DNA of 42,237 bases, taken from NCBI GenBank assembly GCA_903873705.1, contig CAIQPK010000085.1, positions 1 to 42,237 on the forward strand. The letters run 5' to 3'. The stretch comes from an uncultured Acidobacteriota bacterium (GTDB lineage: Bacteria; Acidobacteriota; Terriglobia; Terriglobales; Acidobacteriaceae). A program made the translations under genes and the position numbers. Below the pieces are notes generated by a model. It had not been told where the DNA came from. It searched no databases and saw only the letters and a program-made list of their open reading frames with translations. Numbering within the stretch: the stretch's first letter is position 1; every line of letters begins with the position of its first letter. Below, piece by piece: positions 10,443 to 34,143 of the stretch.

Positions 10443-10513
10443 GGCATACCCCAGGGGCTGAAGCCCGATCTGTGGCGGGGTTTGAGACCCAAGGCTGAAG
10501 CTCTGGGGTACCT
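10443..10513. repeat. Family A repeat, complete copy
   Basis: A 71-base element with the pattern GGCATACCCCAGGGGCTGAAGCCC ... GAGACCCAAGGCTGAAGCTCTGGGGTACCT given in two parts: its left end is GGCATACCCCAGG and its right end is CTGGGGTACCT. The two ends are inverted repeats, so it can form a long hairpin, and GGCTGAAGC appears in both halves. A second complete copy at 12373 lies inside a gene. Confidence 0.8.
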
Positions 10514-11306: not shown

Positions 11307-11622
11307 AGCGCGGCTCCCTGGAGTAATGATGCATCTCGGAATCTCAACGCTGGCATCGTGCCTTACCACCCATGTGGCCAATAGTGCGCGGCAGGAATGG
11401 GGCACCCGGGGCTTTGGTGCCGCTATTTGCGAAGAACGGGAGAAAAGCAGGTTCTTCGCTTTAGCTCAGAGTGACAATTTCTCTTTGGAGAAATTGTCTA
11501 AGAACAGCAACAGCAACAGCAAGTGCAAGTGCAAGTGCCAATGCGGGGATCTCTCCACTACACTGCGCTTCGGTCGAGATGACAGTTGCGGGGGTGGGGC
11601 AATGTTGGAAGTGTGAACGCGT
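11307..11622. repeat. Composite repeat region (families B, E, hexamer and C)
   Basis: No gene is supported. It contains ATGGGGCACCCG (about 11398, family B end), a family E unit (11449-11502: TTCTTCGCTTTAGCTCAGAG, then TGACAATTTCTC), a short inverted repeat ATTTCTCTTTGGAGAAAT, an AGCAAC/AGTGCA hexamer tract (11508-11539) and a family C unit (11538-11585: CGGGGATCTCTCCAC ... CTTCGGTCGAGATGACAG). The same order E-hexamer recurs at 33858. Confidence 0.75.
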
Positions 11623-13806
11623 TCAGGCGGTGACTTCGAGTTCCTGGTCTTTGTATTGGAGCTGGTAGAGCTTGTAGTAGAGGCCGCGCTCGGCGAGGAG
11701 TTGCTGGTGGGTGCCTTGTTCGCGGAGCTGGCCTTTGTGCATGACGAGTATGGTGTCGGCGCGCTGGATGGTGCTGAGACGGTGGGCGATGAGGACGCTG
11801 GTTCTTCCGGTGATCATGCGTTCGAGAGCGAGGCGGACGCGGAGTTCGGTGTCGGTGTCGACGGAGCTGGTGGCCTCGTCGAGGATGAGGATGCCTGGGC
11901 GGTGGGCGAGGGCTCTTGCGAATGAGATGAGTTGTTTTTGGCCGGTGGAGAGGGTGCTGCCGCGTTCGACTACGGGCTCAGCGTAGGTGTTGGGGAGGGT
12001 CTGGATGAAGTCGGCTACGTTGACTTCGGTGGCGGCGTGCTCGACTTCCTGGTCGGTGATCCAGTCGGAGCCGAGACGGATGTTTTGCGCGATGGTGCCG
12101 GAGAAGAGGAAGGGGTCTTGCAGGACGACGCCGAAGCGCTTGCGGAGGGCTAGGAGGTCCTGGTCGCGGACGTCTACGCCGTCGACCAGGACCTGTCCGG
12201 CCTGGACGTCGTAGAAGCGCATCATGAGGGCGGTGATGGTGGTTTTGCCGGCTCCGGTGTGGCCTACGATCGCGGCGGTTTCATCGGGGTGGATGGTGAA
12301 GGAGACGTTGCGGAGGATCCATTCGATGGAGGGGTCTTCGCGGGGGTCGGCGGTGGTGTTGGCGGCTGTAAAGGCATACCCCAGGGGCTGAAGCCCCGCT
12401 TCTGTGCTGGGCGATGAGACCCGAGGCTGAAGCCTCGGGGTACCTAGAAGCGCGTTGGTGGCTGGGCCGGCTTCTTGCGATCCCACCTTAGCCGACGATG
12501 AGGCCGTCGGCGAAGATGGGGCACCCAGAGTTTGTAAAGAGTCGAGCTGCTCGGGGGTGAGGCGTTGGTAGGTGAACCAGACGTTGCGGAATTCGATGCT
12601 GCCGGTTTTTTGGGTGGCGATGGGGGTGGTGGGGGAGACGATTTCGGCGGGGGTGTCGAGGAGCTTGAAGATGCGCTCGGCGGCGGCCATGGCGGATTGG
12701 AGGATGTTGAATTTGTCGGAGAGGTCCTGGATGGGGCGAAAGAAGCGCTGGGCGTATTGGATGAAGGCGATGAGGATGCCGATGGTGACGGTGTTGCCGA
12801 GGAAGCTGAGGTGGGTAGTGCCGGCGGCGTCGAGGTAGCGGTGGGCTGTGGACCAATGCTGAGAGGTGGCGTGAAGAATCGAGGTGCCGCCTTGCCAGAT
12901 GACGAGTGCGATGGCGATGGAGCTGAGGAGTTCGACTACGGGGTAGTAGAGGGCGTAGGCGAAGATGGCGTCGGTCCAGGCGAGCTTGTTCTCGTGGTTG
13001 GCGGCGGAGAAGTCGTCGAAGGCGCGCTTTTCGCGGTTGAAGAGCTGGACGACGCTCATGCCGGAAACGTACTCAGCGGTGAAGGCGTTGATTTTGGCGG
13101 TGGCGCCGCGCTGGCGGCGGTAGCTGTCGCGGACGTGGTCGCGGAAGCGCTTGGTCGCATACAAGATGCCGGGGATAACGGAGAGGGCGAGGATGGCCAG
13201 GGGCCAGCTCATGCGGAGCATGATGACGATGATGAAGGTGAGCGCGAGGACGTCTTCGAAGATGGCGAGGACGCCGGAGGTGAACATTTCGTTGAGGGCG
13301 TCGACGTCGGAGGTGAGGCGGGTGACGAGGCGGCCGACGGGGTTGCGGTCGAAGAAGGCGACGTGCATGGACTGGATGTGGCGGAAGATCTGGGAGCGGA
13401 GGTCGAACATGATCTTCTGGCCGGTCCACTGCATGAGGTAGGTCTGGACGAACTCGAGGACGAAGGTGAGCGAGAGGGCGGCGAGGTAGAGGAGGCCGAG
13501 CTGGGTGATGCCGGTGGAGGGGTCGGGGGAGAGGTGCGCGCTGAGCCAGGAGGGGCGGACGGTGCTGGTGAAGTAGGTGTCGACGGCGACCTTGACGAAG
13601 TAGGGGCCGGCGACGTCGGAGGCTGACTTGAGGAGGATGGAGAGGGCGGAGAAGGCGACCTGGAGGGTGTAGGGGCGGAGGTAGCCGATCAGGCGGCGCA
13701 TGAGGCGCGCGTCGTAAACCTTGCCGACGGTGTCGGCGTCCTGCCTGGCGGTGGAGGCGGGCTGGGGCTGGTTGTCTGTGTTGGGCTTCGCGGCCTGGTC
13801 TGCCAT
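11623..13806 (-). CDS. ABC exporter (fused membrane and ATPase domains), with repeat-derived insert in the ATPase domain
   Basis: 727 residues, against about 600 for the family. Residues about 30-345 form the six-helix exporter membrane domain. The ATPase domain starts at GSIEFRNVWFTYQ. It has Walker A GHTGAGKTT, signature STGQKQLISFARAL (LSTGQ in place of LSGGQ), Walker B GILILDEATSSVD and the switch His in IAHRLST. Between FTYQ and EWILRNVSFTI are about 80 extra residues, coded by a family B element (12478-12529) and a complete family A element (12373-12445); typical relatives have only a short turn there. The substrate is unknown; an MsbA/LmrA-like lipid or drug exporter is likely. It is divergent from hemW, 45 bases away. 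Confidence 0.92.
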   Translation of the reverse strand: MADQAAKPNTDNQPQPASTARQDADTVGKVYDARLMRRLIGYLRPYTLQVAFSALSILLKSASDVAGPYFVKVAVDTYFTSTVRPSWLSAHLSPDPSTGITQLGLLYLAALSLTFVLEFVQTYLMQWTGQKIMFDLRSQIFRHIQSMHVAFFDRNPVGRLVTRLTSDVDALNEMFTSGVLAIFEDVLALTFIIVIMLRMSWPLAILALSVIPGILYATKRFRDHVRDSYRRQRGATAKINAFTAEYVSGMSVVQLFNREKRAFDDFSAANHENKLAWTDAIFAYALYYPVVELLSSIAIALVIWQGGTSILHATSQHWSTAHRYLDAAGTTHLSFLGNTVTIGILIAFIQYAQRFFRPIQDLSDKFNILQSAMAAAERIFKLLDTPAEIVSPTTPIATQKTGSIEFRNVWFTYQRLTPEQLDSLQTLGAPSSPTASSSAKVGSQEAGPATNALLGTPRLQPRVSSPSTEAGLQPLGYAFTAANTTADPREDPSIEWILRNVSFTIHPDETAAIVGHTGAGKTTITALMMRFYDVQAGQVLVDGVDVRDQDLLALRKRFGVVLQDPFLFSGTIAQNIRLGSDWITDQEVEHAATEVNVADFIQTLPNTYAEPVVERGSTLSTGQKQLISFARALAHRPGILILDEATSSVDTDTELRVRLALERMITGRTSVLIAHRLSTIQRADTILVMHKGQLREQGTHQQLLAERGLYYKLYQLQYKDQELEVTA
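12373..12445. repeat. Family A repeat inside the ABC exporter gene
   Basis: A complete 73-base copy (ends GGCATACCCCAGG and GGGGTACCT). Read on the minus strand it encodes GTPRLQPRVSS-PSTEAGLQPLGYA without a stop. The hairpin ends match the copy at 10443, but the arm CCGAGGCTGAAGCCTCGG is an even better palindrome here. Confidence 0.85.
12478..12529. repeat. Family B repeat inside the ABC exporter gene
   Basis: Form: GATCCCACC, a stem-loop (GCCGAC ... GTCGGC), then GATGGGGCACCC. On the minus strand it is read as GAPSSPTASSSAKVGS. The stem sequence differs from copy to copy while the outer ends are kept. Confidence 0.8.
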
Positions 13807-13851
13807 GTGGTTCTATTTTAGATGGCCGTGGGGTGCGTGAAAGAATGAGGT

Positions 13852-15063
13852 ATGTCTGCGCTGACGCCGCTGGGTGTTTATATTTCTGTGCCGTTCTGCA
13901 AGGCTAAGTGCAGCTTCTGCAATTTTGCGTCGGGGGTGGGGACGGCGGAGAAGATGGCGGCGTACGTGAAGACGCTTTGCGCGGAGATGGACGCGGCGGC
14001 GGCGACGTCGGAGAGGCTGGGGGCGGAGCTAACGCGGCGGGTGGATACGGTTTACCTGGGGGGAGGGACGCCTAGTCTGCTGGAGCCGGGGCAGATGGAG
14101 CGGGTGTTTGCGGCACTGCGGCGAAATTTTGATGTGGACGGCGATGCTGAGGTGACGATGGAGGCCGCGCCGGGACAGATTTCGGATCCGTCGCTGGAGA
14201 TGGCGATGCGGCTGGGGGTGAATCGCGTGAGCCTGGGGGTGCAGAGCTTTGTGGACCGCGAGAGCCAGGCGGTGGGGCGGTCGCATACGGGCGAGAGCTG
14301 TTTGGCGGAGATTGCGCGGCTGCGGCGGGCGGGGGTGAAGGAAGTGGCGGCGGATTTGATTGCGGGGCTGCCTTATCAGACGGCGGCGAGCTGGGAGTAT
14401 TCGCTGGGGGCGGCGGTGGCGTCGGAACTGACGCACTTGAGTGTTTACATGCTGGAGGTGGATGAGGACTCGCGGCTGGGGCTGGAGGTGCTGGCGGGTG
14501 GGGTGAGGTTTCATGCGCATGGGGTGCCTAGCGATGAGGTGTCGGCTGCGCTGTATGAGCAGGCTTGCGAGGCGCTGGAGGCGGAGGGGTTTGGGCAGTA
14601 TGAGATTTCGAACTTTGCGCGGGGGCGGGAGCATGAGTCGAGGCATAACCGGAAGTATTGGGAGCGGGGGGCGTATGTGGGGTTCGGGCTGGATGCGCAC
14701 TCGATGCTGATGAGGCAGGGTCCAGGGTCCAGGGCCCAGGGTTCAGAAGGCGTGCGGGTTGCGAATGTTGAGGAGTTGGGTGGGTATGGGGCGGCGACGT
14801 GGGGTGGTGGTGTGGTGCGGGTGGGGGTGGATGAGGCTTTTGAGGAGAGCTTGTTTTTGGGTTTGAGGCTTTGCGAGGGCGTGGATGTGGCGGGGTTGCG
14901 GGAGAGGTTTGGTTCGCGGGTGGAGACCGTTGAGGGGGCGGTGGGGGAGTTGGCGTCGGGTGGGTTGATGGTGGAGGAGGGTGGGAGGTGGAAGCTGACG
15001 CTGCGGGGGCGGATGGTGTCGAATGAGGTTTTTGGGCGGTTGCTGGAGGGAGTGGCGGTTTGA
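13852..15063 (+). CDS. hemW: HemW-like radical SAM protein (heme chaperone; old name coproporphyrinogen III oxidase-like)
   Basis: 403 residues. The radical-SAM cluster motif is CKAKCSFC (C16, C20, C23), followed by YLGGGTPSLL and NRVSLGVQSF. The HNxxYW motif (RHNRKYW) marks HemW, a heme-binding chaperone, rather than the oxygen-independent oxidase HemN. After the GFGLDAHSM motif the frame runs through a family F repeat (14716-14750), giving RQGPGSRAQGSEG where relatives have a short loop. The C-terminal winged-helix domain (LFLGLRLCEGVD) is present. It is divergent from the ABC exporter. Confidence 0.92.
   Translation: MSALTPLGVYISVPFCKAKCSFCNFASGVGTAEKMAAYVKTLCAEMDAAAATSERLGAELTRRVDTVYLGGGTPSLLEPGQMERVFAALRRNFDVDGDAEVTMEAAPGQISDPSLEMAMRLGVNRVSLGVQSFVDRESQAVGRSHTGESCLAEIARLRRAGVKEVAADLIAGLPYQTAASWEYSLGAAVASELTHLSVYMLEVDEDSRLGLEVLAGGVRFHAHGVPSDEVSAALYEQACEALEAEGFGQYEISNFARGREHESRHNRKYWERGAYVGFGLDAHSMLMRQGPGSRAQGSEGVRVANVEELGGYGAATWGGGVVRVGVDEAFEESLFLGLRLCEGVDVAGLRERFGSRVETVEGAVGELASGGLMVEEGGRWKLTLRGRMVSNEVFGRLLEGVAV
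14716..14750. repeat. Family F repeat inside hemW
   Basis: Runs of GGTCCAGGGTCCAGGGCCCA followed by GGGTTCAGAAG, i.e. tandem degenerate (G)GGTYCA units. The same unit occurs in addA (22345) and addB (23721). Confidence 0.75.
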
Positions 15064-15070
15064 CGGAGGG

Positions 15071-15130
15071 CCAAGGCGTTTCACGCAAAGAAAAGCGAAG
15101 GTTGAAAGCACGCAAAGGGAGCGAGGGTTT
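15071..15130. repeat. Family D repeat between hemW and the threonine aldolase
   Basis: CCAAGGCGTTTCACGCAAAG ... GCACGCAAAGGGAGCGAGG. It is very close to 25541-25602 over its length. Confidence 0.75.
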
Positions 15131-15191
15131 CGGTGGTGGATATGGGTTGTGGATATGGTCAACAGGATGTGGATGGATGTGAGGGTGCTCA

Positions 15192-16226
15192 ATGAGTGTG
15201 ATTGATTTGCGGAGTGACACGGTGACTAAGCCGACGGCAGCGATGCGGGCGGCTATGGCGGCGGCTGAGGTTGGGGATGATGTTTATGGCGAGGACCCTA
15301 CCGTCAACAAGCTGGAGGCTCGGGCGGCTGAGGTGTTTGGGCGGGAGGCGGCGATCTTTGTGCCTACCGGGACGATGGGGAACCAGATTGCACTTCGTCT
15401 GCATACGCAGCATGGGCAGGAGGTGATCTGCGAGGCGCGGTCGCATGTACTGGATTGGGAGATGGCGATGGTGGCGGCGTTTTCCGGATGTGTTCCGCGG
15501 ACGGTCGTTGGGGAGCGTGGGGTGATGCGGTGGGCGGATATTGCGAAGGCGATTGCGCCGAAGATTTACTATCGGGCGGCGACCGCGATGGTGACGGTGG
15601 AGAATACGCACAACATGGCGGGTGGGACGGTTACGCCGGTGGCCGTGCTGGAGGAGATCTGGGCGGGTGCGCGGGAGGCGGGGTTGAAGACGCACCTGGA
15701 TGGCGCTCGGGTGTTCAATGCGGCGGCGGCTCTGGGGGTGGATGTGACGGCGCTGACTTCGGGGTTCGATACGGTGATGTTTTGTTTGTCGAAGGGGCTG
15801 GGGGCGCCGGTGGGGTCGATGCTGGTGGGGAATCGGGAGGCGATTGATCGGGCTCGGGTTTATCGGAAGGCGCTGGGGGGTGGGATGCGGCAGGCGGGTG
15901 TGCTGGCGGCGGCGGGGTTGATTGCGCTGGAGGCGATGCCGGGGCGGTTGGGGGAGGACCACGCTCATGCGCGGATGATGGCGGAGGCGGTGGCTGAGGT
16001 CGATGGGGTGGAGTGTGATTTGGGGAGCGTGCAGACGAATATTGTGTTCTTCCGGCTGGCTGGTGGAGGAGCAGCGGAGTATGTGGCTCGGGTGAAGAAG
16101 GCCGGGGTGTTGTGCAGCGCGATTGGGCCGGACCAGGTGAGGCTGGTGACGCACTTCGATGTTTCTCGGGAGGAGTGTGAAAGGGCGGTGGGGGTGTTGA
16201 GGCAGGGAGTAGGGAGTAGGGAGTAG
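15192..16226 (+). CDS. ltaE: Low-specificity L-threonine aldolase
   Basis: 344 residues. This PLP enzyme (fold type I) cleaves L-threonine and L-allo-threonine to glycine and acetaldehyde. Motifs: IDLRSDTVTKPT at the start, GDDVYGEDPTVN, the aromatic/His region with EARSHVLDWE, the cofactor Asp in HLDGARVFNA, and the PLP lysine K201 in LSKGLGAPVGS. The last residues (VGSRE) and the stop codon are coded by the GGGAGTA tandem array, so the native C-terminus has probably been replaced. GAGG lies about 10 bases before the ATG. Confidence 0.93.
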   Translation: MSVIDLRSDTVTKPTAAMRAAMAAAEVGDDVYGEDPTVNKLEARAAEVFGREAAIFVPTGTMGNQIALRLHTQHGQEVICEARSHVLDWEMAMVAAFSGCVPRTVVGERGVMRWADIAKAIAPKIYYRAATAMVTVENTHNMAGGTVTPVAVLEEIWAGAREAGLKTHLDGARVFNAAAALGVDVTALTSGFDTVMFCLSKGLGAPVGSMLVGNREAIDRARVYRKALGGGMRQAGVLAAAGLIALEAMPGRLGEDHAHARMMAEAVAEVDGVECDLGSVQTNIVFFRLAGGGAAEYVARVKKAGVLCSAIGPDQVRLVTHFDVSREECERAVGVLRQGVGSRE

Positions 16227-16246
16227 GGAGTAGGGAGTAGGGAGTA
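16205..16246. repeat. Family G: (GGGAGTA)6 tandem array over the ltaE stop codon
   Basis: Six perfect 7-base units. Because 7 is not a multiple of 3, each reading frame through the array passes TAG within 21 bases. The third codon cycle supplies the ltaE stop at 16224-16226. Confidence 0.9.
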
Positions 16247-16279
16247 GGCAGGTGCGTGGTCCCGGGGCTCTCAATTCGG

Positions 16280-16410
16280 GGTTCCTTCGCTTCGCTCGAG
16301 GATGACGGCGAGAAACAAACAACGGCAGCTCCGCGGCGAATGCAGCTGCCTCGGCCGACGCCAATGCGGGGATCTCTCCACTGCGCTGCGCTTCGGTCGA
16401 GATGACGGTG
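16280..16410. repeat. Families E and C repeats downstream of ltaE
   Basis: Family E unit at 16280-16307 (TTCCTTCGCTTCGCTCGAGG, then ATGACGG) and family C unit at 16361-16410 (CGGGGATCTCTCCACTGCGC, then GCTTCGGTCGAGATGACGG). No gene lies between 16227 and 16429. Confidence 0.75.
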
Positions 16411-16429
16411 GTGAGGTAGCGGGAAGCGG

Positions 16430-18232
16430 TCAGGCTTCGACGGTGGGGAGCTCGGGGCGGGTGGCGGCGGGGCCGGTGCGGGGGAGGAAGACCGTGATGG
16501 TGGTGCCCTGGTCTTGCGGGATGATGCTGCTGCGAATGTCGATGGTGCCGCCGTGCTTTTCGATGATGCCCTTGCTGACCCAGAGGCCGAGGCCGGTTCC
16601 GCCTTCTCCCTTGGTGGTGAAAAAGGGCTGGAAGATGCGCTCGAGGGCGGCGGGTTCGATGCCACTGCCGGTGTCGGCGACCTGGATGACGACGCCGGGG
16701 CGGGAGCTTCCGTCGCGCGCGGAGGAACGGGTGGCGCTGATGGTGATGCTGCCGTTGGCGGAGCAGGCGTCGACGGCGTTGGCGACCAGGTTGGTAAAGA
16801 CCTGGCGGAGCTCGGCGGGGTAGCCTTCCACGCGCAGGCCGTCTGCGATCTGGTTTTCGACGTGGATGGTCTTGTTTTTGAGCTGGCGGTCAAGGAGGAC
16901 GAGGACGCTTTCGAGCATCTCCTTGATATCGATGGTGATGGCGGACTTGGCTTCGCGGTAGAGGCCCAGCATGGCGCGGCTGATCTGGCCCATGCGGCCG
17001 AGCTCCTGCTGGGCGAGATCGAGGTAGTGGTGCGAGGTGACGGTATCGGTCTCGTCGCGCATGAGGTAGAGGAGGTTGACGACGGAGTCGAGCGGGTTGT
17101 GAATCTCGTGCGCGATGGTGGCGGCGAGGCGGCCGGCGACGGCGAGCTTTTCGGTGGCGAGGAGAGCGTCCTGTGCGCGGCGCTCGTGGGTGATATCGCG
17201 GAAGACCATGACGATGCCGGAGAGTGCGCCGGAACGTTTGTAGATGGGCGCGCCGCTATCGTCGATGTTGATTTCGGTGCCGTTACGGCGGATGAGGATG
17301 GTGTGGTTGGCCAGGCCGACGACGCGCTGGAGGCGCTTGACCTTGGCGACGGGAGTTTCGACGAGCTCGCGGGAGGCCTCGTTGACGATGTGGAAGACGT
17401 CCTCGAGGGGGCGGCGGAAGGCTTCGGTCTGGGACCAGCCGGTGAGCTCCTGGGCGACGTTGTTGAGGAGCTCGACGCGGCCTTCGGGGTCGCATACGAT
17501 GACGCCGTCGCCGATGGAGGTGAGGGTGGTGCGGAGTCTCTCTTCTGACTCGAATGTGGCCTGGGCGTGAAGGCGGAGGCCGTTGAGGGTGCCCTGGTAC
17601 GCGTCCGAAACGCGGTGAAGGCGGCTGACCGTGAAGAGACTGATGACGACACCGGCTCCGAGTGCGAGGACGATGAGCGCGATGATGGTGACGCGGGTCT
17701 GGCGGCGCCAACGGGCGACTTCCTTCTGGCGGACGGCGGTCTCACGGGCGAAGATGTTGTTGATGTCGGCGCGGACGCTGTCCATGGCGACTTTGCCGCG
17801 CATGTTCTGGGCGACACTGCGGGTGTCTGCTCCTCCGGCGACTTCTGCGATGAGGGGTTGCGCGAAGCTGAAGCGCCAGGCCTGCTCGTGAGCTTCGAGG
17901 TCGAGGACGGGCTGAATGGATTCGCCCTGGGACTGGAAGATGCCCCTGAGGGTGTTGAGCGCCGCGGCGATGTCTGGCGCGGACTGATAGTAGGGCTGCA
18001 GGAACTGGGTGTCGGAGGTGATCTGGTAGCCGCGGAGGCCGGTTTCCTCGTCGATGGTGCGACGGTAGACGAGGCCGGTGGTGGTCATGCCCTGGTCGGC
18101 GGCCTGGATGGTGGCGACGGTTTTTTGTGCGCTGCGGACCTGCCAGACGAGGACGGTTGCGACGCCCGCTAGCGCGAGCACCGGGAGGAGCAGGGTCTGG
18201 ATGAGAATGCGATTGAACTGGCTGAGGTTCAC
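16430..18232 (-). CDS. Membrane sensor histidine kinase (CHASE3-like sensor, PAS, HisKA, HATPase)
   Basis: 600 residues. Two membrane helices (about 9-29 and 183-206) frame a periplasmic helical sensor of CHASE3 type (DEETGLRGYQIT). A PAS domain follows (about 240-360: LTSIGDGVIVCDPEGRVELLN ... MVFRDITHERRAQ). The phospho-acceptor is H375 in TIAHEIHNPLDS. ATP-binding boxes: NLVANAVDA, VADTGSGI, FFTTKGEGGTGLGLW. It probably autophosphorylates on an unknown signal. The lone receiver 150 bases upstream is the natural candidate partner; no DNA-binding regulator lies nearby. Confidence 0.92.
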   Translation of the reverse strand: MNLSQFNRILIQTLLLPVLALAGVATVLVWQVRSAQKTVATIQAADQGMTTTGLVYRRTIDEETGLRGYQITSDTQFLQPYYQSAPDIAAALNTLRGIFQSQGESIQPVLDLEAHEQAWRFSFAQPLIAEVAGGADTRSVAQNMRGKVAMDSVRADINNIFARETAVRQKEVARWRRQTRVTIIALIVLALGAGVVISLFTVSRLHRVSDAYQGTLNGLRLHAQATFESEERLRTTLTSIGDGVIVCDPEGRVELLNNVAQELTGWSQTEAFRRPLEDVFHIVNEASRELVETPVAKVKRLQRVVGLANHTILIRRNGTEINIDDSGAPIYKRSGALSGIVMVFRDITHERRAQDALLATEKLAVAGRLAATIAHEIHNPLDSVVNLLYLMRDETDTVTSHHYLDLAQQELGRMGQISRAMLGLYREAKSAITIDIKEMLESVLVLLDRQLKNKTIHVENQIADGLRVEGYPAELRQVFTNLVANAVDACSANGSITISATRSSARDGSSRPGVVIQVADTGSGIEPAALERIFQPFFTTKGEGGTGLGLWVSKGIIEKHGGTIDIRSSIIPQDQGTTITVFLPRTGPAATRPELPTVEA

Positions 18233-18381
18233 AGGGTTTCCGCGTCCAGCTTAACGGGCTTTGCTCTCTGTGACTTGAGACCGGCTGCTGGATTCAAAAA
18301 GATAATAATGCTTTCGAACTTATTCGACGCCTGACGTGAGAAGCGTGGGATGGGGCCTCAGCGTGAAACGGTTGGAACTGG

Positions 18382-18768
18382 CTAACTCGAAACGATTTGA
18401 CGCTCTTTATTTTGAAACAGGCTGCCTAGCTTCTGCAATAAAACGGGAGCGCCTTCGCCCTTGGTCATGTAGACGTTGACGAGATCGGTGACTTCGGCGG
18501 GGAGGCCCATGTAGGCGGAGAGGAGCAGGATGGGGACTTCAGGTTTGGCCTGGCGCATGCGGGCCGCGACTTCACCGCCGTGCATGCCGGGCATAGAGTA
18601 GTCGAGTACGACGGCGTCGACGGGGTTTTCCTGGAAGATGGTGAGGCCGGATGGGCCGTCGAGCGCGGTGAGGACGGTGTAGCCGGAGCGCTCCAGGATG
18701 AGCTTGCGGACCTGGAGGCCGACCACTTCATCGTCGACGCAGAGCACGACATGGCTTTCCTGTGGCAA
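18382..18768 (-). CDS. Single-domain response regulator (receiver only)
   Basis: 128 residues from a TTG start at 18768; a purine-rich CGGGGGGC stretch upstream could serve as ribosome site. Receiver landmarks: the acidic pair in CVDDE, the phosphorylated Asp in VVLDYSMPGMHGGE, Ser in LLLSAYM, and Lys in MTKGEG. There is no output domain, so it should pass phosphate on or act by protein contact, as CheY does. It starts 60 bases after addA ends and may be transcribed from the addBA promoter. Confidence 0.88.
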   Translation of the reverse strand: MPQESHVVLCVDDEVVGLQVRKLILERSGYTVLTALDGPSGLTIFQENPVDAVVLDYSMPGMHGGEVAARMRQAKPEVPILLLSAYMGLPAEVTDLVNVYMTKGEGAPVLLQKLGSLFQNKERQIVSS

Positions 18769-18828
18769 ACGGAGCCCCCCGGGCGTTCCTCAATCCTGCC
18801 TGAGGATATCACCGGAGGTAGTGGGTTA

Positions 18829-21800
18829 TCAGTGTTGGAGGAGAGTTTCGGATACATCTTCGGGGGCATGTGAGGGCCAGGAGATGAGGCGGGGGATGAG
18901 GGGGTAATAGAGGGCGAGCATGATGGGCTGCCGGTGCGGGCCGAGGGCGGTGAGGGCGCGGGCGTAGGTTTCGAGCTGGGCGCTGTACTTGGCGCGCTCC
19001 TGCTGGTCGAAGAGCGTGTCGGAGCGGGAGCCCTGCTCGGTGGTCTTGTAGTCGACGATCCAGAGGTGGGTGGTGCCGGTGGAGAGTGGGGTGGGGCCGG
19101 CGAGGAAGGTGCGGTCGACGCGGAGCTCGCCGGTGGGAGTGCGGAGGGCGTGCTCACTGCGGGAGCCGGGGTGAGGTGTGAGGGTCCAGAGGCCGCGGGG
19201 GTCGGCCAGCGACTGCTGGAGGGCGGAGAGGGCGCGGGGGGCCAGGCGGTCGAGCTGGCTGGGGGGAAGGCCTTCGGCACGGAGGCTGGCGGTTAGGCGA
19301 GGGAGCCATGAGGGAAGCTCGGCGGCGAGGGCGGCGAAGTCGGGGAGCGCGGCCAGGCGATCGGCGAGGAGCTGGAGGAAGCGGTGGACGACGTTGCCGA
19401 AGGCGCGGACGGCGAAGGAGCCTTCCGGGCGGTCGAATGCGGGTAGGTGCTGGAGGGCGTTGGCGGGGGTGTAAGGGAGGGGTTGGGTTTGGGTCAGGCG
19501 GGTGAGGGGGTTGAAGGAGAGGGGCAGACGCTGGATGGTTGGGGGCGCCGGGAGGGCTGGCTCGGCTGCGGCCGCGAGGGCGAAGGTGGGCTGGGCGAAA
19601 GTGGGTTGTTGTGAGGACTCGTTTTCCAGAGATTGGCGCCAGATTTCCACAGATGAGGAAGAGGGGATTTCGGCGAAGTGGGGGGCGGCGGCTGGCCAGG
19701 CAGCCTCAAGGAGTGAGCCGCGGGGGACTGAGGGTTCTCCGTTCTTATAGGGGAAGACCGCGGCGAAGAGGTGGAGTTCTTCCCTGGCTCGGGTGCAAGC
19801 GACGTAGAAGAGGCGTTTGCGCTCGGCGGCTTCGCGGGCGTTGCGGTTGCGGGTGAGCCAGGTGTGGAGGGCGTCGGGTTCGCCGCCTTTGCCGTAGATG
19901 GGGGCGAGGATGACCGAGGCTTCGGCGGTGTCGGCGGGGTTGGTGGAGGGGGAGTCGAGCTCAAGCCAGTTGAGGAGCTGGGTGTGGCTGGACTGGCCCA
20001 TGCGTTCGAGGGCGGGGACAAAGACGACGTCCCACTCGAGGCCCTTGGCGCGGTGAATGGTGCTGAGGTCGACGAGGTTTTCGCCGGTGCGGGGTGCGGC
20101 GTAGAGACGGGCGACGGCGGCGTTGAGGGCGGCGAGGTCGACGCGGCCGCCGGGAGATTCGACCTGACGGAGGGCGCGGAGGAAGGCGTCGACGTTGGTG
20201 AGCTGGTCAGGGCGGAGGGCGGCGTCACCGCCGAGGGAGTGCCAGGTGCGCTGGACGAGGGTGGCGGTGGAGGAGCGGCCGCGTTCGTCGAGGGCGGTGA
20301 TGAGGGTGGGCCAGATACGGTTGAATTGGCGCTGGCCGTCGGGGGTGAGGAGGTGGCAGCGGTCGGCGGCGGTGGCGGGGATGGTCTCAGCGAGGGTGCC
20401 GGGGAGGCCGTTGCCGGCGAGGGCGAGGAGGTCCGCCAGGCCGAGGCCGCACCAGGGGGCGCGCAGGATGGCGAGCCAGGCGGCGCGGTCGGCGGGGTGG
20501 AGCAGGGCGCGGGTAAGGGCTAAGACGTCAAGGACTTCCGGGCGATTGTTGAGGAGCTCGATCTCATTGGCGCGGTAGGGAATGTTGTGGCGGTTGAGCT
20601 CGGCGATGGTGGGGGCTAGGTGATGGCGGGCGCGGGCAAGGATGGCGATGGTCCAGGGGGCGGTGCGGCCTGGGGGAAGGGGCTTGGCTTGCCAGAGCTC
20701 GATACGCTGGCGGATGGTGCGGGCTTCGATGAGGGTGTTTTGTTCCCTGGTGATGAGGGTTGGCGTTGAGGTTTCGATGGAGGCGGCTATGGCGAGGTCC
20801 GCATTGTGCGACCCCACCCGTGACGGTGAGAATGTCACGAATGGGGCACCCGAATTTGGGGTGGTCCCAACTGCAGGTCTCTCCACATCGCTGCGCTCCG
20901 GTCGAGATGACAGATTTGTGGAGGATTTTTCGGGGTCACCGAGGAGGGTGGTGTTCCAGACTAAGGCGGCGGCGGTGGGGGAGGGGTCTCGGGTGGGGTC
21001 GGCGTAGACGAAGGGGACGTCTATGGCGTTGGGGTTGGGTTGGGCGTCGGTCGCGGGGAAGATGGCATTGAAGTTGTGGTTGAAGTCTTCTACCAAGGTG
21101 GCCTGGGAGCGAAAGTTAGCGGTGAGGTGAAGGACGCCAAGGGGGATGTCGCCGAGGCGTTGGGTGCGCATGGCGCGCATGAAGCGTTCAACGCGGGCCT
21201 GGCGGAAGAGGTAGATAGATTGCTTGGGGTCGCCGACGAGGAAGAGGGTTTGGCTATGGCCGTCCCAGCTTTGGGAGAGCATTTCGATGAGCTCGTATTG
21301 GCTGGAGGAGGTGTCCTGCATCTCGTCGACGAGGAGGTGGCGGAGGGTGGCGCCGGCGGCGGAGGCGAAGTCGGCGGGTCCGCTTTCGGAGCGGAGGGCG
21401 TGCTTGGCGGCGATGGTGAGCTCGGTGAAGTCGCATTCCTGGCGTTCGGCGAAGAGGACTTTGAGCTCGGCGAGGGCGCGGAGTAGGAGGTGGAAGAGGG
21501 ATTTGGCGACGGCCCACTGGTTGTCGGGGTAACGGGCGGGGGGAAGCTCGCGAACGGCGCAGAGGGTTTTGCAGAGGCCGGTGTCGTGGCGGACCTGGTC
21601 AATGAGTTCTTTGAGGAGGGCTTTGTCATCCGGGGAGAGCTTGAGGCCGACGTGGTCGACGTTGAATCCCTTGCGCCAGTCGCCGCTGTTGGTGACGAGG
21701 AGGCCGATGAGGGCGGTCCAGTGGTCGAAGTGCTCGGCCTGGGTTTCAGGTGGGTCGGATTTGTTGGCGCAGATGTAGAGGGGGTTAGGGAAGTCTTTGT

Positions 21801-22812
21801 AGCCGGGTTCGTGGGCGAGGCGGGCGGCGAGCCAGGAAAGGGCGATCAGCATGTCCGGCGGCATGGCGTGGGCGGCGCGGGTTAGGCCGGCGCAGACGAT
21901 TTGCTCGAGGGCGCGTTCGAGGCGGGGACGGACGATGGTTTCGAGGGCGTCGTCTTCGAGGTCGGGGCCGAGAGGGACGAGCTCGCCCCACTGCTCGCGC
22001 TGCTGGAGCATGCGGGCGAGGAGGGTTTCGCAGTCTGAGAGGGAGCCGTCGCGGTGGAGGAGGATGTCGCGGATGGCGGCAGAGAGGCGGGGGTTGGGTC
22101 CTCCGAGCTGCATGAGGGTGCGGCGAGCGGCGAGGTGGTAGAGGGGGTCGGCGTTTTCGGATGGGGTGCGGGGGGCGCCGGAGCCGGAGAGGAGGGGAAG
22201 GGTAGCGGCGATTTCGGCGGCGATGGAATCGATGGTGCGGATGTTGAGGCGCTGGGGGCGGGTGAGGAGGCCCCAGTTTTGTTGGGCGTCGCGGGCGAGG
22301 ACGGCGGCGGCGAGGGTTTGGGAGGTTTGGTCGAAGGGGGAGAGGCCAGGGTTCAGGGACCAGGGTTCAGGGTCCAGGGGTGAGGGTTGAGGGGTCGAGG
22401 GTTCAGGGGTCGAGGTGGTCCCAGCTGCAGGTCTCTCCACCGCGCTGCGCTCCGGTCGCGATGACAGATTTGTGGAGGGGATGGAGCGGGGGGAGGCTTT
22501 GTGGAGTTGGGCGAGGACGCGTTCGCGGAGCTCGGCGGTGGCTTTGCGGGTGAAGGTGATGGCGAGGACTTCTTCGGGTTGCTGTACGGTGTCGGAGGCC
22601 AGAAGCTTGAGGAAGCGCTGCATGAGGAGGCCGGTTTTGCCGGAGCCGGCGGGGGCTTCGACGATCCAGGAGGCGGTGATTTCGAGGGCCTGGTCGCGGG
22701 CGGGCTGGTCGAGGGGCGGTTGGGTTTCGGTGGATCCCACGTCCGAAGGTCCGGAGGGGGGGCACCCCTTTTCTTGCGGGTCTGATGGGAAATGCAGGAG
22801 GTTATTCGGCAT
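18829..22812 (-). CDS. addA: AddA-like ATP-dependent helicase/nuclease subunit A, with three repeat-derived inserts
   Basis: 1327 residues. UvrD-type helicase motifs run in order: Walker A EAPAGSGKTGLL, Ia ITFTRKATAELRERV, the DEMQDTSSSQYELIE Walker B (usual DEFQDT), III VGDPKQSIYLFRQA, V STIHRAKGLEWDVVFVP, VI FYVACTRAREELHL. A RecB-type nuclease ends the protein (GNVVHRFL, then LRVDRTF and WIVDYKT). With AddB it should process double-strand DNA ends for RecA. Its N-terminus overlaps addB by 11 bases. Repeat-coded peptides sit at residues about 14-27 (family B), about 113-150 (families C+F) and in the 640s-680s (families C+B); none breaks the frame or hits a motif. Confidence 0.9.
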   Translation of the reverse strand: MPNNLLHFPSDPQEKGCPPSGPSDVGSTETQPPLDQPARDQALEITASWIVEAPAGSGKTGLLMQRFLKLLASDTVQQPEEVLAITFTRKATAELRERVLAQLHKASPRSIPSTNLSSRPERSAVERPAAGTTSTPEPSTPQPSPLDPEPWSLNPGLSPFDQTSQTLAAAVLARDAQQNWGLLTRPQRLNIRTIDSIAAEIAATLPLLSGSGAPRTPSENADPLYHLAARRTLMQLGGPNPRLSAAIRDILLHRDGSLSDCETLLARMLQQREQWGELVPLGPDLEDDALETIVRPRLERALEQIVCAGLTRAAHAMPPDMLIALSWLAARLAHEPGYKDFPNPLYICANKSDPPETQAEHFDHWTALIGLLVTNSGDWRKGFNVDHVGLKLSPDDKALLKELIDQVRHDTGLCKTLCAVRELPPARYPDNQWAVAKSLFHLLLRALAELKVLFAERQECDFTELTIAAKHALRSESGPADFASAAGATLRHLLVDEMQDTSSSQYELIEMLSQSWDGHSQTLFLVGDPKQSIYLFRQARVERFMRAMRTQRLGDIPLGVLHLTANFRSQATLVEDFNHNFNAIFPATDAQPNPNAIDVPFVYADPTRDPSPTAAALVWNTTLLGDPEKSSTNLSSRPERSDVERPAVGTTPNSGAPFVTFSPSRVGSHNADLAIAASIETSTPTLITREQNTLIEARTIRQRIELWQAKPLPPGRTAPWTIAILARARHHLAPTIAELNRHNIPYRANEIELLNNRPEVLDVLALTRALLHPADRAAWLAILRAPWCGLGLADLLALAGNGLPGTLAETIPATAADRCHLLTPDGQRQFNRIWPTLITALDERGRSSTATLVQRTWHSLGGDAALRPDQLTNVDAFLRALRQVESPGGRVDLAALNAAVARLYAAPRTGENLVDLSTIHRAKGLEWDVVFVPALERMGQSSHTQLLNWLELDSPSTNPADTAEASVILAPIYGKGGEPDALHTWLTRNRNAREAAERKRLFYVACTRAREELHLFAAVFPYKNGEPSVPRGSLLEAAWPAAAPHFAEIPSSSSVEIWRQSLENESSQQPTFAQPTFALAAAAEPALPAPPTIQRLPLSFNPLTRLTQTQPLPYTPANALQHLPAFDRPEGSFAVRAFGNVVHRFLQLLADRLAALPDFAALAAELPSWLPRLTASLRAEGLPPSQLDRLAPRALSALQQSLADPRGLWTLTPHPGSRSEHALRTPTGELRVDRTFLAGPTPLSTGTTHLWIVDYKTTEQGSRSDTLFDQQERAKYSAQLETYARALTALGPHRQPIMLALYYPLIPRLISWPSHAPEDVSETLLQH
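20806..20923. repeat. Family B plus family C repeats inside addA
   Basis: Family B at 20806-20853 (ACCCCACC, stem CGTGAC/GTCACG, ATGGGGCACCCG), then family C at 20859-20923 (TGGTCCCAACTGCAGGTCTC ... TCGAGATGACAGATTTGTGG). Read on the minus strand: NLSSRPERSDVERPAVGTTP then GAPFVTFSPSRVGS. Confidence 0.85.
22345..22477. repeat. Family F plus family C repeats inside addA
   Basis: Family F at 22345-22412 (tandem CCAGGGTTCAGGG and GAGGGTTCAGGGGTC units), then family C at 22413-22477. Family C is read as NLSSRPERSAVERPAAGTT, nearly the same peptide as at 20859. Family F is read as a Pro/Ser-rich tract ending EPWSLNPG. Confidence 0.85.
22732..22769. repeat. Family B repeat at the 5' end of addA
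   Basis: GATCCCACG, short stem TCCG/CGGA, GGGGCACCCC. It is read as GCPPSGPSDVGS near residues 16-27 of AddA, in a different frame from the copies at 12478 and 20806. Confidence 0.7.
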
Positions 22813-25501
22813 CGGGGGCCTCGGCTTCTTCGCCGGTGGCGAGGGTGGCGATGTCGAGGCGGCAGAGGAGGCGCTGGTCGCAGTGGGTGCAGGTGAAGGG
22901 GTAGTCCTTGGGCGAGACGACGGGCTGGCCGTGGGCGAAGTCGTGGGCGAGGTGTTCGAGGACGGTGCGCCAGCTGGCGATCTGGTCTTCGAGGGTGGCT
23001 TGTTCCATGGGTGAGGGTTTGGGCAGGGGGCCGTAGCCGGACCACTTCATGTCTTTGCCGGGGCGGATTTTGGCGAAGGCTACGCCCTGGAGGTTGGCGG
23101 CTTCGGGGAGGAGGGCGTAGAGGGGGAGCTGGGGGTCGTCGGGGCGGGGACCTCGCCAGTCGGCGGGTGAGGAGCGGGCGCCGGTTTTGTAGTCGACGAG
23201 GAGGGTGCCGCCTTCGACGGCGTCGATGCGGTCGACGCGGAGGTTGAGGGTGAGGGGGCCCACGGTGACGGCGCGCTTCTGCTCGCTGGAGGTGACGGTG
23301 AAGGGGGCGCGGTCGAGCTCGCGGTCGAGCCATTGGAGGAGGAGGTAGGTCATGCGGTCCTTCTGGACGGCGATGTAGGCGGCTTCCCAGGGGCTGTTGG
23401 CGGCGGGGCGGGGGAAGGTGGCGTCGATGGCGGAGCGGAGGCCGGTGGTGCGGTCATCCGGGGACATGGAGCGGAGGTTTTGCTGGGTTTCGACGTGGCT
23501 CCAGAAGTTGGCCATGACGGCGTGGAGGAGGGTGCCGGATTCGCCGGCGTCGAAGCCGGGGGTGGTGGTGTTGAGGGGTGTGGCGTTGAGGCGGAGGGTG
23601 GCGAAGGCGCGGAAGCTGCAGGCGGCCTGGAGCTTGAGGACGAGAGAGCCGCCGCGGACTGCGGTGGAGGCGAGGCCGGGGAGCGGGGCGGTGTCGGGGA
23701 GGGTTTCGAGGGTGAGTAAGGGTCCAGGGTTTAGGGCCCAGGGCTCAGAGAGCAGGTTGGTGGTTTCGATTTGGGGCCAGTTGAGGTTGGCGATGAGGGG
23801 TGAGAGGCGTTGGGGGCCGGTTTCGTCTTCGACGGCGTAGAAGAAGAGGACGGTGGGGGCGGCCTTGGTGAGGCGGGCGGTGGCTTCGGCGGCGCGGGCT
23901 GAGGCGCGGGCGGGGTCGGCGCCAGGCATGTGGAGGTCGTACTGGAGGGGCCAGGGGAGCAGGGGGTTGGGCCGCTCGGGGGTGGGCCAGTTGGCGTCGG
24001 TGGCGCGGAGGAAGATGAGGGCGTCGAAGATGAGGCCGGCGGCGTCGGCGGGGGTGAGGATTTGGAGGGCGGGCTCGATGGTGCTGGGGGAGCTTGTTGT
24101 GGCGCGGGCCTGGCGTTCGATGGCGGCGAGGGCAGTGGCGAAGTCGACGCGCTGGCCGGCGAAGTCGAGGGTGGCGACGGCGTCGAGGACGTGGTCCCAG
24201 GTGCGGGCGTCGCGGAATTCCTGGGCGGTGAGGGGGCGGTAGCCGGGCCAGTGGACGGCTTCGAGCGTATTGCGGACGTGGTCGGTCCAGTCGGCGTAAC
24301 TGGCCGTGGTGGGGATGCGGGTGGTGAGCGGAGTGAGGATTGGGGTGATGGCGGGGTGGTTGCGAGCGAGGGTGAGGAGGGTGGGGATGTCGAGTTCGGG
24401 ACGGAGGAGCTCGGTTCGGCGAAGGGTGAAGGCGTCGAAGGTGGCGCGGTCGTCGGTGGTGTCGATGGCGCCGAGGTAGGAGGAGAGGAGGAGGGCGGAG
24501 ATGGTGTCGAGGGGGAGGGGGGCGAGGGTCCAGCGGAGGAGGTCGAGGGCGGTGGTGATGAGGGCGGTGTCCGCTAGCGGGATGTTCGTTGAGAAGGCGA
24601 AGGGAGCGGAGGAAAGGTCGGCGGTGATGGCTTCGAGCTCGGGGGAGAGGATGTGGCGGAGGGTGCTTTCGAGGAGGGGTTGCTCGTCGGCGAGGGTGGG
24701 GACGATGAGGGCGACGCGGTGGGGGAGGTTGGCGGCGGCGCGGGTGAGGATGAAGTGGCGGACGTAGTGGGCGGCGGTTTGGAGCTCGTCGGTGGGGTTG
24801 GGGGCGCGGACGATTAAATGGGTGGGGTGTTCGGGGGAGAGCGGTCGAGCTTCGCTCGATGCCCACCCTAACGACGATGGAACTGTCGTGAGGATGGGGC
24901 ACCCGGGTTCTGGGGCTAGTGCAGGGAGGTTTATGTGGGTGATGTGGGTGCCGCTTTGGGTGAGGGCGGTTAGGAGGTGGGTGCGGGCGGGGGTGTCGTC
25001 GTCGAAGGCGATGAGGGTGATGGCGGGGGGCGGGGTGAGGGTTTGGTTTTCGAGGTGTTCGCGGAGGGCCTGGGGGAGTTCGGATAAGGATAGGAGGGCG
25101 CGTTGGTCGCAGCGGCGGTTGAAGGCGGTGGCCCAGGTGGCGAAGGTGCGGGCGTCGTGGGTGGTGGCGGTGCGGCGGAGGTGGGGGAGAGCGTCGTAGG
25201 CGGCGGCGAGGGAGTAGGCGGATTGGGCGAGGTCGGCGAGGGAGTCTAGGTCGGTGAGGGCGGAGAACTCGGGGGTGGCGGCGATGATGTCGCGCCAGAG
25301 GGTGTGCTCCTGCGGTGGGTTGAGGAGGAGGCGGTGGTCGGCTCCGTTGAGGATGAGGGTGGACCAGAGGGAGCGGAGGAAGGTGTTCCAGCTGAGGACC
25401 TGGGTGGTGTCGAGCTGGGTGCGGAGGGATTGCGCGGCGCGCTCGCTGGCGGCGAGGAGGAGGGAGCCTCGGGCTAGGGCGGCTTGGAGCTCGGCGGGCA
25501 T
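22802..25501 (-). CDS. addB: AddB-like helicase/nuclease subunit B (PD-(D/E)XK, iron-sulfur type)
   Basis: 899 residues from the ATG at 25501. A GTG at 25555 gives 18 more, but that start lies in a family D repeat and its peptide looks random. The N-terminal part is an inactivated UvrD-like fold (SERAAQSL, VLSWNTFLRSLW). The C-terminal nuclease has GTLLHAVMANF, LRVDRIDAVEGG and LLVDYKTG. Four cysteines fit the AddB [4Fe-4S] clasp: one in AACSFRAFA and CTHCDQRLLC at the end. Repeat-coded stretches: family B at 24841-24910 (GCPILTTVPSSLGWASSE) and family F at 23721-23752 (EPWALNPGP). It is the first gene of addBA. Confidence 0.88.
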   Translation of the reverse strand: MPAELQAALARGSLLLAASERAAQSLRTQLDTTQVLSWNTFLRSLWSTLILNGADHRLLLNPPQEHTLWRDIIAATPEFSALTDLDSLADLAQSAYSLAAAYDALPHLRRTATTHDARTFATWATAFNRRCDQRALLSLSELPQALREHLENQTLTPPPAITLIAFDDDTPARTHLLTALTQSGTHITHINLPALAPEPGCPILTTVPSSLGWASSEARPLSPEHPTHLIVRAPNPTDELQTAAHYVRHFILTRAAANLPHRVALIVPTLADEQPLLESTLRHILSPELEAITADLSSAPFAFSTNIPLADTALITTALDLLRWTLAPLPLDTISALLLSSYLGAIDTTDDRATFDAFTLRRTELLRPELDIPTLLTLARNHPAITPILTPLTTRIPTTASYADWTDHVRNTLEAVHWPGYRPLTAQEFRDARTWDHVLDAVATLDFAGQRVDFATALAAIERQARATTSSPSTIEPALQILTPADAAGLIFDALIFLRATDANWPTPERPNPLLPWPLQYDLHMPGADPARASARAAEATARLTKAAPTVLFFYAVEDETGPQRLSPLIANLNWPQIETTNLLSEPWALNPGPLLTLETLPDTAPLPGLASTAVRGGSLVLKLQAACSFRAFATLRLNATPLNTTTPGFDAGESGTLLHAVMANFWSHVETQQNLRSMSPDDRTTGLRSAIDATFPRPAANSPWEAAYIAVQKDRMTYLLLQWLDRELDRAPFTVTSSEQKRAVTVGPLTLNLRVDRIDAVEGGTLLVDYKTGARSSPADWRGPRPDDPQLPLYALLPEAANLQGVAFAKIRPGKDMKWSGYGPLPKPSPMEQATLEDQIASWRTVLEHLAHDFAHGQPVVSPKDYPFTCTHCDQRLLCRLDIATLATGEEAEAPDAE
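23721..23752. repeat. Family F repeat inside addB
   Basis: GGTCCAGGGTTTAGGGCCCA then GGGCTCAGAG. It is read as LSEPWALNPGP, almost the peptide of the addA copy (EPWSLNPG), so the same frame is used. Confidence 0.75.
24841..24910. repeat. Family B repeat inside addB
   Basis: GATGCCCACCC, stem ACGAC/GTCGT, GGATGGGGCACCCG, preceded by CGGTCGAGCTTCGCTCGAT, itself a palindrome (TCGAGC..GCTCGA). It is read in the GCP frame, as at 22732. Confidence 0.75.
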
Positions 25502-25540
25502 GGAGTACAGGTTATATGGGGTGAGGTGAGCAAAGGCAAA

Positions 25541-25602
25541 AGCAAGGCGTTTCACGCAAAGAACGCAGAGGAGAAAAGCACGCCAAGGGCGCGAAGGTTT
25601 TT
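25541..25602. repeat. Family D repeat upstream of addB
   Basis: GCAAGGCGTTTCACGCAAAG ... GCACGCCAAGGGCGCGAAGG. It fills most of the gap between addB and the MFS gene and supplies the spurious GTG at 25555. Confidence 0.75.
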
Positions 25603-30354: not shown

Positions 30355-30606
30355 ATGGGGACGCTGAATGTCAATCCGGAGATGGATGAGCTGGTTGAGC
30401 AGCTCACTGCGACGACTGGTGAGCCTGCGGATGTGGCGGTGCGGGTAGCTCTGCGCGAGCGGCTTGATCGCGTAACGCATCGCAAGGGGCGTGAATTGCT
30501 GGAGCGAATTCGACCCATCCTTGATCGCGTTGCGGCCATACCGGAGCGTGATCCGCGACCTGCGGAAGAAGTACTGGGGTACAACGAGCACGGGCTCTTC
30601 GATTAA
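30355..30606 (+). CDS. vapB: VapB-type antitoxin (Rv0623-like / PSK family)
   Basis: 83 residues. The N-terminal ribbon-helix-helix-like part (LNVNPEMDELVEQLTATTGE, then ADVAVRVALRERLDR) matches the short antitoxin family that pairs with PIN toxins. The C-terminal tail (EEVLGYNEHGLFD) is the usual toxin-binding end. GGGAG lies upstream of the ATG. The stop overlaps the toxin start (TAATGG). It probably represses its own operon together with VapC. Confidence 0.92.
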   Translation: MGTLNVNPEMDELVEQLTATTGEPADVAVRVALRERLDRVTHRKGRELLERIRPILDRVAAIPERDPRPAEEVLGYNEHGLFD

Positions 30607-30995
30607 TGGTTATCGAGACATCTGTTCTCGTTGCCATCGTCCTTCGCGAAGCGGATTTCGAAAATTTAGTATTCCTGATCGCTGAAACGGAGGCGCGTTT
30701 TGTCTCGACCGCCAATTACCTCGAAGCTTCATTGGTCCTTTTTCAAAAGCGCGATGAAAGTGCGTTCCTCGAGTTAGATCGGCTTATCGATGAGATGGAG
30801 ATCACTGTTGTTCCCGTGACTCCGGCCCAGGTTCGGATAGCGCGGGAAGCTTTCGGAATATATGGCAAGGGCCAAGGCAATCCAGCACAACTCAATCTCG
30901 GAGACTGGTTTGGGTATGCGTTAGCTAAGCAGATGGGCGAACCGCTCCTGTTCAAAGGAGACGATTTCCTCCACACCGATGTGTTGAAGGCTTAG
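30606..30995 (+). CDS. vapC: VapC-type toxin, PIN-domain ribonuclease
   Basis: 129 residues. The PIN acidic centre is seen as E4 (MVIETSVLVAI), E40 (TANYLEASLVL), D100 (NLGDWFGYALAK) and D119/D120 (LLFKGDDFLHTD). The family nearly always has Asp in place of E4 (MVIDTS). The exchange keeps the charge but may weaken metal binding. These toxins cut specific RNAs, often tRNA or rRNA. It is coupled to vapB by a one-base overlap. Local base composition is less GC-rich than its neighbours, a hint of transfer. Confidence 0.93.
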   Translation: MVIETSVLVAIVLREADFENLVFLIAETEARFVSTANYLEASLVLFQKRDESAFLELDRLIDEMEITVVPVTPAQVRIAREAFGIYGKGQGNPAQLNLGDWFGYALAKQMGEPLLFKGDDFLHTDVLKA

Positions 30996-33857: not shown

Positions 33858-34003
<146 letters not shown>

Positions 34004-34010
<7 letters not shown>

Positions 34011-34143
34011 ACTCTGGGGACTGACATTCATGGCGTGGAATGACAACTCTGGGGACTGACATTCATGGCGTGGGATGACAACTCTGGGGACTGGCATTCA
34101 TGGCGTGGGATGACAACTCTGGGGACTGACATTCATGGCGTGG
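34004..34143. repeat. Tandem array, four copies of a 35-base unit
   Basis: The unit begins AATGACAACTCTGGGGACTG and ends ACATTCATGGCGTGG. Copies start at 34004, 34039, 34074 and 34109, with only two or three base changes among them. It lies just before the TPM-domain gene. Each unit holds an ATG, which creates a false longer N-terminus for that gene. Confidence 0.92.

Follow-up and report, generated by a model that had tools for sequence, protein, structure and literature searches.

How short repeats come to lie in frame within bacterial proteins is unsettled, and Rickettsia is the best-known case. As far as the accessible portions of two accounts go, such repeats occur in protein genes of Rickettsia, Neisseria, enterobacteria and REP-rich genomes, with tRNA synthetase and recBCD genes among the hosts (PMC2229807, PMC3733652). 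The window analyzed here, the whole 42,237-nucleotide stretch that is contig 85 of a 94-contig, 4.18-Mb assembly (G000; its genus-mates are labelled G001-G027), raises the same question. A sequence-only reading had placed four repeat families, A, B, C and F, in frame within genes for an ABC exporter, AddA, AddB and HemW, at sites where linkers are tolerated, and had likened them to Rickettsia palindromic elements (RPEs). Are these segments insertions, and if so, how did they enter their hosts while keeping the frame?

Repeat copies, their borders and their hosts

Profiles grown from the four families, applied at E values up to 1e-3, match all four hosts where the reading had put the repeats, except for one B segment in AddA that was recognized by eye (Table 1). 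The peptides it quoted, EPWSLNPG and EPWALNPG among them, are correct; the predominant antisense reading of B is GAPSSPTASSSARVGS and that of F is (E/G)PWALNPG. The hosts do keep open frames, and at the level of domains, Pfam and NCBIfam matches flank the inserts on both sides. Because neither AddA nor the exporter reaches any NCBIfam cut-off, their names stay general; among named records, the best matches to AddA come from Edaphobacter, Terriglobus and Granulicella (Acidobacteriaceae).

Table 1. Host genes and repeat copies in the window, with the basis for each assignment.
Feature	Position	Strand	Basis
Host gene, MsbA-like ABC exporter (ABC_membrane + ABC_tran)	11623..13806	-	Pfam; no NCBIfam model above cut-off
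Host gene, HemW (radical SAM)	13852..15063	+	TIGR00539 above cut-off
Host gene, AddA-like helicase-nuclease	18829..22812	-	Pfam/NCBIfam; genus orthologues
Host gene, AddB-like nuclease (TIGR03623)	22802..25555	-	Above cut-off
Family A element, 72 nt, in ABC exporter; antisense reading about GTPRLQPRVSSPSTEAGLQPLGY	12374..12445	+	Profile; hairpin z -3.3 as DNA
Family B element, 45-nt class, in ABC exporter; antisense reading GAPSSPTASSSAKVGS	12482..12526 (profile match to 12531)	+	Profile; hairpin z -4.1
Family F element in HemW; sense reading GPGSRAQGSE	14717..14747	+	Profile, orthologue lengths
Family B element, 39-nt core, AddA insert 2	20813..20856	+	Profile
Family C element (subfamily C1), AddA insert 2; antisense reading SSRPERSDVERPA	20875..20916	+	Profile
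Family F element, AddA insert 1; antisense reading EPWSLNPG	22344..22370	+	Profile
Family C element (C1), AddA insert 1; antisense reading SSRPERSAVERPA	22429..22470	+	Profile
B-like segment, AddA N-terminal extension	about 22735..22776	+	By eye; below profile threshold (E 1e-3)
Family F element in AddB; antisense reading EPWALNPG	23719..23749	+	Profile; not clear insertion vs orthologues
Family B element in AddB, 43-nt core; unusual frame GCPILTTVPSSLGW	24862..24904 (profile match to 24909)	+	Profile
Intergenic family A copy	10444..10513	+	Profile
Intergenic family C copy (C2)	11548..11587	+	Profile
Intergenic family C copy (C2)	16371..16409	+	Profile

Reversed G000 stretches yielded 0 profile matches, compared with 60 for A, 27-30 for B (three B profiles), 107 for C and 45 for F in the forward direction, and B and C patterns written backward, the control for the pattern search, had 0 matches in the genome. 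Chance or low-complexity similarity is thus ruled out as the source of the matches.

Comparison with relatives defines the borders. An AddA match was found in 27 of the 28 genus genomes searched (G000 counted; the G020 match is to a distant helicase only). The genus orthologues of AddA share about 44-65% identity, and none of the relatives proved similar enough to show empty sites in the DNA itself. Where the match is full-length, the tblastn alignment is typically interrupted at residues about 107-158 and 628-690, which are the repeat positions. From the syntenic stretch, taken from 20 genomes, we aligned 19 orthologues of the exporter and 20 of each other protein; most of them lack the inserts. 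The exporter site measures 111 aa against a genus median of 55, the two AddA sites 101 and 116 aa (medians 60 and 56), the AddA N-terminus 50 aa (median 29) and the HemW site 46 aa (median 38). AddB holds up as a host for its B insert (66 vs a median of 40 aa) but not for F, whose site, at 51 vs 48 aa within an orthologue range of 45-55, is not counted as an insertion. Some orthologues are long as well: 3 of 19 at the exporter site (78-103 aa), 4 of 20 in HemW (47-52 aa) and 3 of 20 in AddB where B lies (53-61 aa). Some of them reach this length without these repeats, which speaks against the insertion account. In G002 the exporter carries its own insert at the same site as in the window (103 aa vs the median of 55), parts of which match five further places in that genome; a C-like stretch within it is visible by eye and is absent from the C profile matches at E 1e-3. 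The HemW of G002 likewise has an F-like peptide insert at the site of the window's F, and a C copy lies in the AddA of G011, at a different place.

Structural comparisons bear on where the inserts lie. An AlphaFold model of AddB, built from 13 sequences (mean pLDDT 69.4, pTM 0.56; 249 of 917 residues below 50), places residues 211-242, with a pLDDT below 50, between two strands; the neighbouring residues are modelled with confidence, and the B insert is accordingly predicted to be a loose loop. For the four other hosts tried against relatives in the PDB, the ValRS, HisRS and GlmS copies occupy gaps that separate aligned segments, and the copy in QueA lies in an insertion.

Gene content was surveyed over about 1.06 Mb of G000, overlaps counted, comprising the window, an untargeted 400-kb sample and regions around repeat matches. 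Genes were called with a simple self-trained coding model rather than a standard gene finder, and a copy was scored as intragenic if it lay within a gene of 200 codons or more; four A, three C and three F copies at the edge or end of a gene, or in a small gene, count toward the totals without being scored so. On these terms the intragenic copies at E up to 1e-3 number 1 of 60 for A, 16 of 30 for B, 25 of 106 for C and 31 of 43 for F. Eight 40-41-nt matches to the B pattern fell below the profile threshold and outside this classification, and one other match to the B pattern, on contig C2, is unrelated. In the untargeted sample, only 3 of 21 A, B and C copies lie in genes although 84.6% of the sequence is coding; thus, gene copies of these families are strongly depleted. 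The host genes, the window's included, number 30 for A, B and C and 45 with F. Beyond the window there are 27 A/B/C hosts, of which 20 were scanned and 18 have Pfam domains; these include five aminoacyl-tRNA synthetases and proteins resembling GlmS, RecQ, PriA, DnaX, RNase R and QueA. Together, the borders, the reversed-sequence control and these additional hosts support the RPE-like reading of repeat families lying in frame at tolerated linker sites.

The palindromic character implied by the likeness to RPEs extends to only part of the material. Compared with shuffled sequence, hairpin folding is stronger in the window copies of A (z -3.3) and of B (z from -1.9 to -4.1) but not in three short C copies and one F.

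Several other features accompany the repeats in the window. Hexamer repeats of AACAGC/AACGGC occupy two intergenic stretches, 11491-11556 and 33868-33987, adjoining C-like sequence, and similar GCAAGTGCC runs lie upstream of many intergenic C2 copies. At 34002-34141, copies of a 35-bp unit stand head-to-tail upstream of a gene. A small gene pair at 30355-30995 presumably encodes a VapBC-type antitoxin and a PIN-domain protein, judging by eye. A search for known RNA families found just one tRNA across the window.

Length, frame and strand

The B cores within G000 genes measure 45 nt (12 copies), 39 nt (2) or 43 nt (2); those between genes measure 38 to 43 nt, a length that in 12 of 14 cases is not divisible by three. 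All 12 of the 45-nt copies are in genes, compared with 4 of 18 of other lengths (p 2e-5). In other species the same division appears less sharply: for copies picked by length among the B matches listed from G002 and G005-G010 (G003 and G004 left out), 14 of 18 with 45 nt are in genes vs 6 of 24 with 43 nt (p 0.0015), and three of the four 45-nt exceptions have a different loop. The extra stem pair that marks the 45-nt form is complementary in 11 of 12 copies in G000 and 9 of 14 elsewhere (plus two G-T pairs), or 20 of 26 overall, and the B stem shows paired changes between copies. For C, only the short form occurs in genes (25 of 79 short copies vs 0 of 27 with the long hairpin, p 0.0004). Each C subfamily keeps mostly to one frame, C1 reading SSRPERS in 14 of 15 cases and C2 reading VISTEAQ in 7 of 8.

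Orientation is more regular still. In G000 the sense strand of all 196 A, B and C copies (60 A, 30 B, 106 C) is the locally G-rich strand, as judged from GC skew in the flanking 2.5 kb on each side. By the skew of the whole stretch, 95 of 96 loci agree, the sole exception lying in a stretch whose own skew changes sign. Furthermore, in contigs that have at least two copies, the minority strand of the contig carries just 3 of 142 A, B and C matches, whereas 2000 shuffles put 42 there on average and never fewer than 31. In the single-contig relative G011, 53 of 53 copies agree within 18 stretches chosen around C copies. There the sign of the skew reverses at several places and the repeat strand reverses with it, in one case 5 to 13 kb from dnaA. 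To the right of dnaA the + strand is G-rich, which by standard replication geometry implies that the repeat sense strand templates lagging-strand synthesis.

Further relatives follow the same pattern, though less than perfectly, with 66 of 68 A, B and C profile matches in agreement with skew and 46 of 49 B copies found by pattern, the three exceptions being partners in inverted doublets. Such doublets dominate in G003 and G004, where, counting by eye, 40 of the 56 B matches listed form 20 inverted pairs, about 90-250 bp apart and arranged minus then plus in 20 of 20; they also occur in G006 and G010, whereas B copies in G000 are single. Because B in G003 and G004 is mostly paired in this way, the polarity rule concerns single copies.

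Of the 41 B and C copies found within G000 genes, 38 run antisense to the host, which is thus a head-on gene, compared with the 58% expected from coding bases in the high-skew sample stretches (p 1e-6). As a general rule an antisense position fails, since G005 and G009 often have their copies in sense.

The skew itself is extreme, at 0.29 in the window (0.57 at third codon positions), above 0.2 in many G000 stretches and as high as 0.395; the part of SkewDB available to us gives a typical skew of 2.5%. Repeat number rises with absolute skew among 20 sample stretches (Spearman 0.52, p 0.02). Skew and repeat strand both flip within two contigs, at about 80-100 kb of C59 (L143) and about 86-90 kb of C69 (L287). 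These switches were considered as ori and ter and rejected, because dnaA lies on C31 and G011 shows several switches. Some strand switches are probably inversion borders, and those on C59 and C69 are perhaps inversion borders or the terminus.

Proposed insertion at the fork and its alternatives

We read the repeats as short, non-autonomous mobile elements that insert strand-specifically in step with the replication fork and are then filtered for open, polar inserts of 3n length, an account that is on balance probable when taken whole. At the fork, a single-strand event would place the repeats in the lagging-strand template, in the manner of IS200/IS605 and TnpA-REP (Y1 HUH) elements. Most insertions in genes would then be lost, and the survivors would be those that are stop-free, span a multiple of three bases and encode polar peptides in loops or inter-domain linkers. 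Permissive sites may go on to gather further repeats, giving the combinations A+B, B+C and C+F. Insertion plus filtering is the part we hold with high confidence; a fork-coupled Y1 mechanism, proposed by analogy, is a tentative candidate for how the insertion might work.

Two Y1_Tnp genes were found in G000, at loci where no known RNA family was detected. The first (L009, C69:17498-20740) is flanked by GGCCTTCAGGCC and GGGGCTTTAGCCCC-type palindromes that resemble family A, in matches that are weak (E 0.018 and 0.075), and the second (L010) is flanked by another, unrelated palindrome. Thus, A may be the REPIN of such a Y1_Tnp gene. Neither B nor C lies directly beside either gene, and the search found no mobiliser for these two families.

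A bolder version of the fork-coupled account is possible, though we find it doubtful. It would hold that unrelated repeats enter only the lagging-strand template as a fork-driven linker system, and that one of them has evolved a gene-adapted form, 3n in length, stop-free and fixed in phase, which extends, time and again, the loops of essential enzymes (tRNA synthetases and replication and repair proteins) throughout the genus, the same sites being hit independently in different species.

The confinement of one length class to genes gives rise to another proposal, namely that a distinct coding-adapted lineage of 45-nt B, and likewise of C1/C2, moves between genes in a fixed phase, in place of filtering after insertion. 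If a filter were the only force, 45-nt B would be expected between genes as well, but there are 0 among the 14 intergenic B copies in G000, an absence that filtering alone leaves unexplained. The restriction of intragenic C to the short form and the single frame of each C subfamily would also fit such a lineage. We nevertheless regard it as rather unlikely: the variation of B stem pairs from copy to copy argues against one recent lineage, G009 has 43-nt B copies within genes too, in sense, and a short target motif combined with codon periodicity could fix the phase.

A different challenge concerns the cause of the polarity. Replication-oriented chromosome signals include AIMS, KOPS and Chi, and selection might similarly maintain the repeats for a role in segregation, fork progress or repair, with wrong-way copies purged. 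That near-total polarity is common to three unrelated families speaks for some such role, yet the same role would then be needed for three unrelated sequences, and the copies are few for it, at 30 to 106 per family examined. In G011, moreover, skew and repeats switch together several times, so that wrong-way blocks seem to be tolerated, and we judge selection an unlikely source of the polarity.

It is very improbable that the inserts arose as ordinary linkers through local slippage or duplication. F is a short near-tandem motif, loops vary among orthologues and an unrelated 14-aa extension occupies the HemW site in G014, G016 and G018, but the presence of the same sequences in unrelated genes and between genes refutes this origin for A, B and C; F might have it. 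Least credible of all is an origin of the polarity in base composition, with skewed mutation leaving profiles able to find only G-rich-strand copies: such extreme skew invites the suspicion, and the agreement of 41 of 43 F copies with skew may be compositional because F is itself G-rich, but skew is followed by all 41 C copies whose 23-base core is unmutated, the C pattern search makes no distinction between the strands and the core is about equally rich in C and G, so that for C the idea is largely refuted.

Relation to known repeats

Beyond Rickettsia, protein-coding palindromes are reportedly present in Wolbachia as well. The window elements resemble RPEs in that repeat families lie in frame within conserved protein genes whose products are presumed functional (parts of PMC2229807 and PMC3733652). 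They differ in belonging to another phylum and in being shorter than RPEs, for which the accessible text gives 105-146 bp (PMC2229807). Furthermore, the composite A+B, B+C and C+F inserts and the replication polarity set them apart, polarity being absent from the description of RPEs in the portions of the two papers available (PMC2229807, PMC3733652). The Correia repeats of Neisseria, in which a 107-bp and a 155-bp form are distinguished, offer a parallel to the length classes, since the form with an open frame is found in genes and the other between them; the split in Neisseria follows stop codons, as described in the part consulted, whereas here it follows length modulo three (PMC2229807).

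The GTAG/CGTC REPs are likewise short, palindromic and mostly intergenic, with some copies in open reading frames that include recBCD, uvr and tRNA synthetase genes, and two Xanthomonas species carry different REPs at about the same site of recB, according to the accessible portion of their description (PMC3733652). That portion reports neither replication polarity nor a 3n class for them (PMC3733652), and by eye the consensus ends of A, B and C bear no GTAG or CGTC tag. Family A, again by eye, resembles the REP doublet of REPIN/RAYT systems; B in G000, by contrast, occurs as single oriented copies. No RAYT was found for B or C, and the elements, at about 30-72 nt, have no gene of their own, which distinguishes them from both REPIN/RAYT and IS200/IS605 elements.

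By analogy, the closest precedent for the polarity is IS200/IS605, whose orientation follows replication and whose insertion prefers the lagging-strand template, as stated in the parts of two papers seen (PMC5371812, PMC6006769). Here, too, repeat orientation follows replication, in 196 of 196 and 53 of 53 copies, with a flip beside dnaA in G011. The BRE repeats of Bordetella are reported, in the accessible part of their account, not to be co-oriented with the fork (PMC3110155). We found neither near-total replication polarity nor an in-gene 3n class of such repeats described in the mainly non-subscription literature available, parts of which were covered, and this is weak evidence of absence.

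Our findings go beyond the known in-frame repeats in three respects: the strand polarity, a 3n class of B confined to genes in G000, and the adherence of each C subfamily to one frame. Because the strand rule for A, B and C has no exception in the tested copies of two genomes and a length class separates genes from the spaces between them, insertion at the fork followed by a frame filter becomes directly testable. The repeats show a route by which essential enzymes gain new loops.
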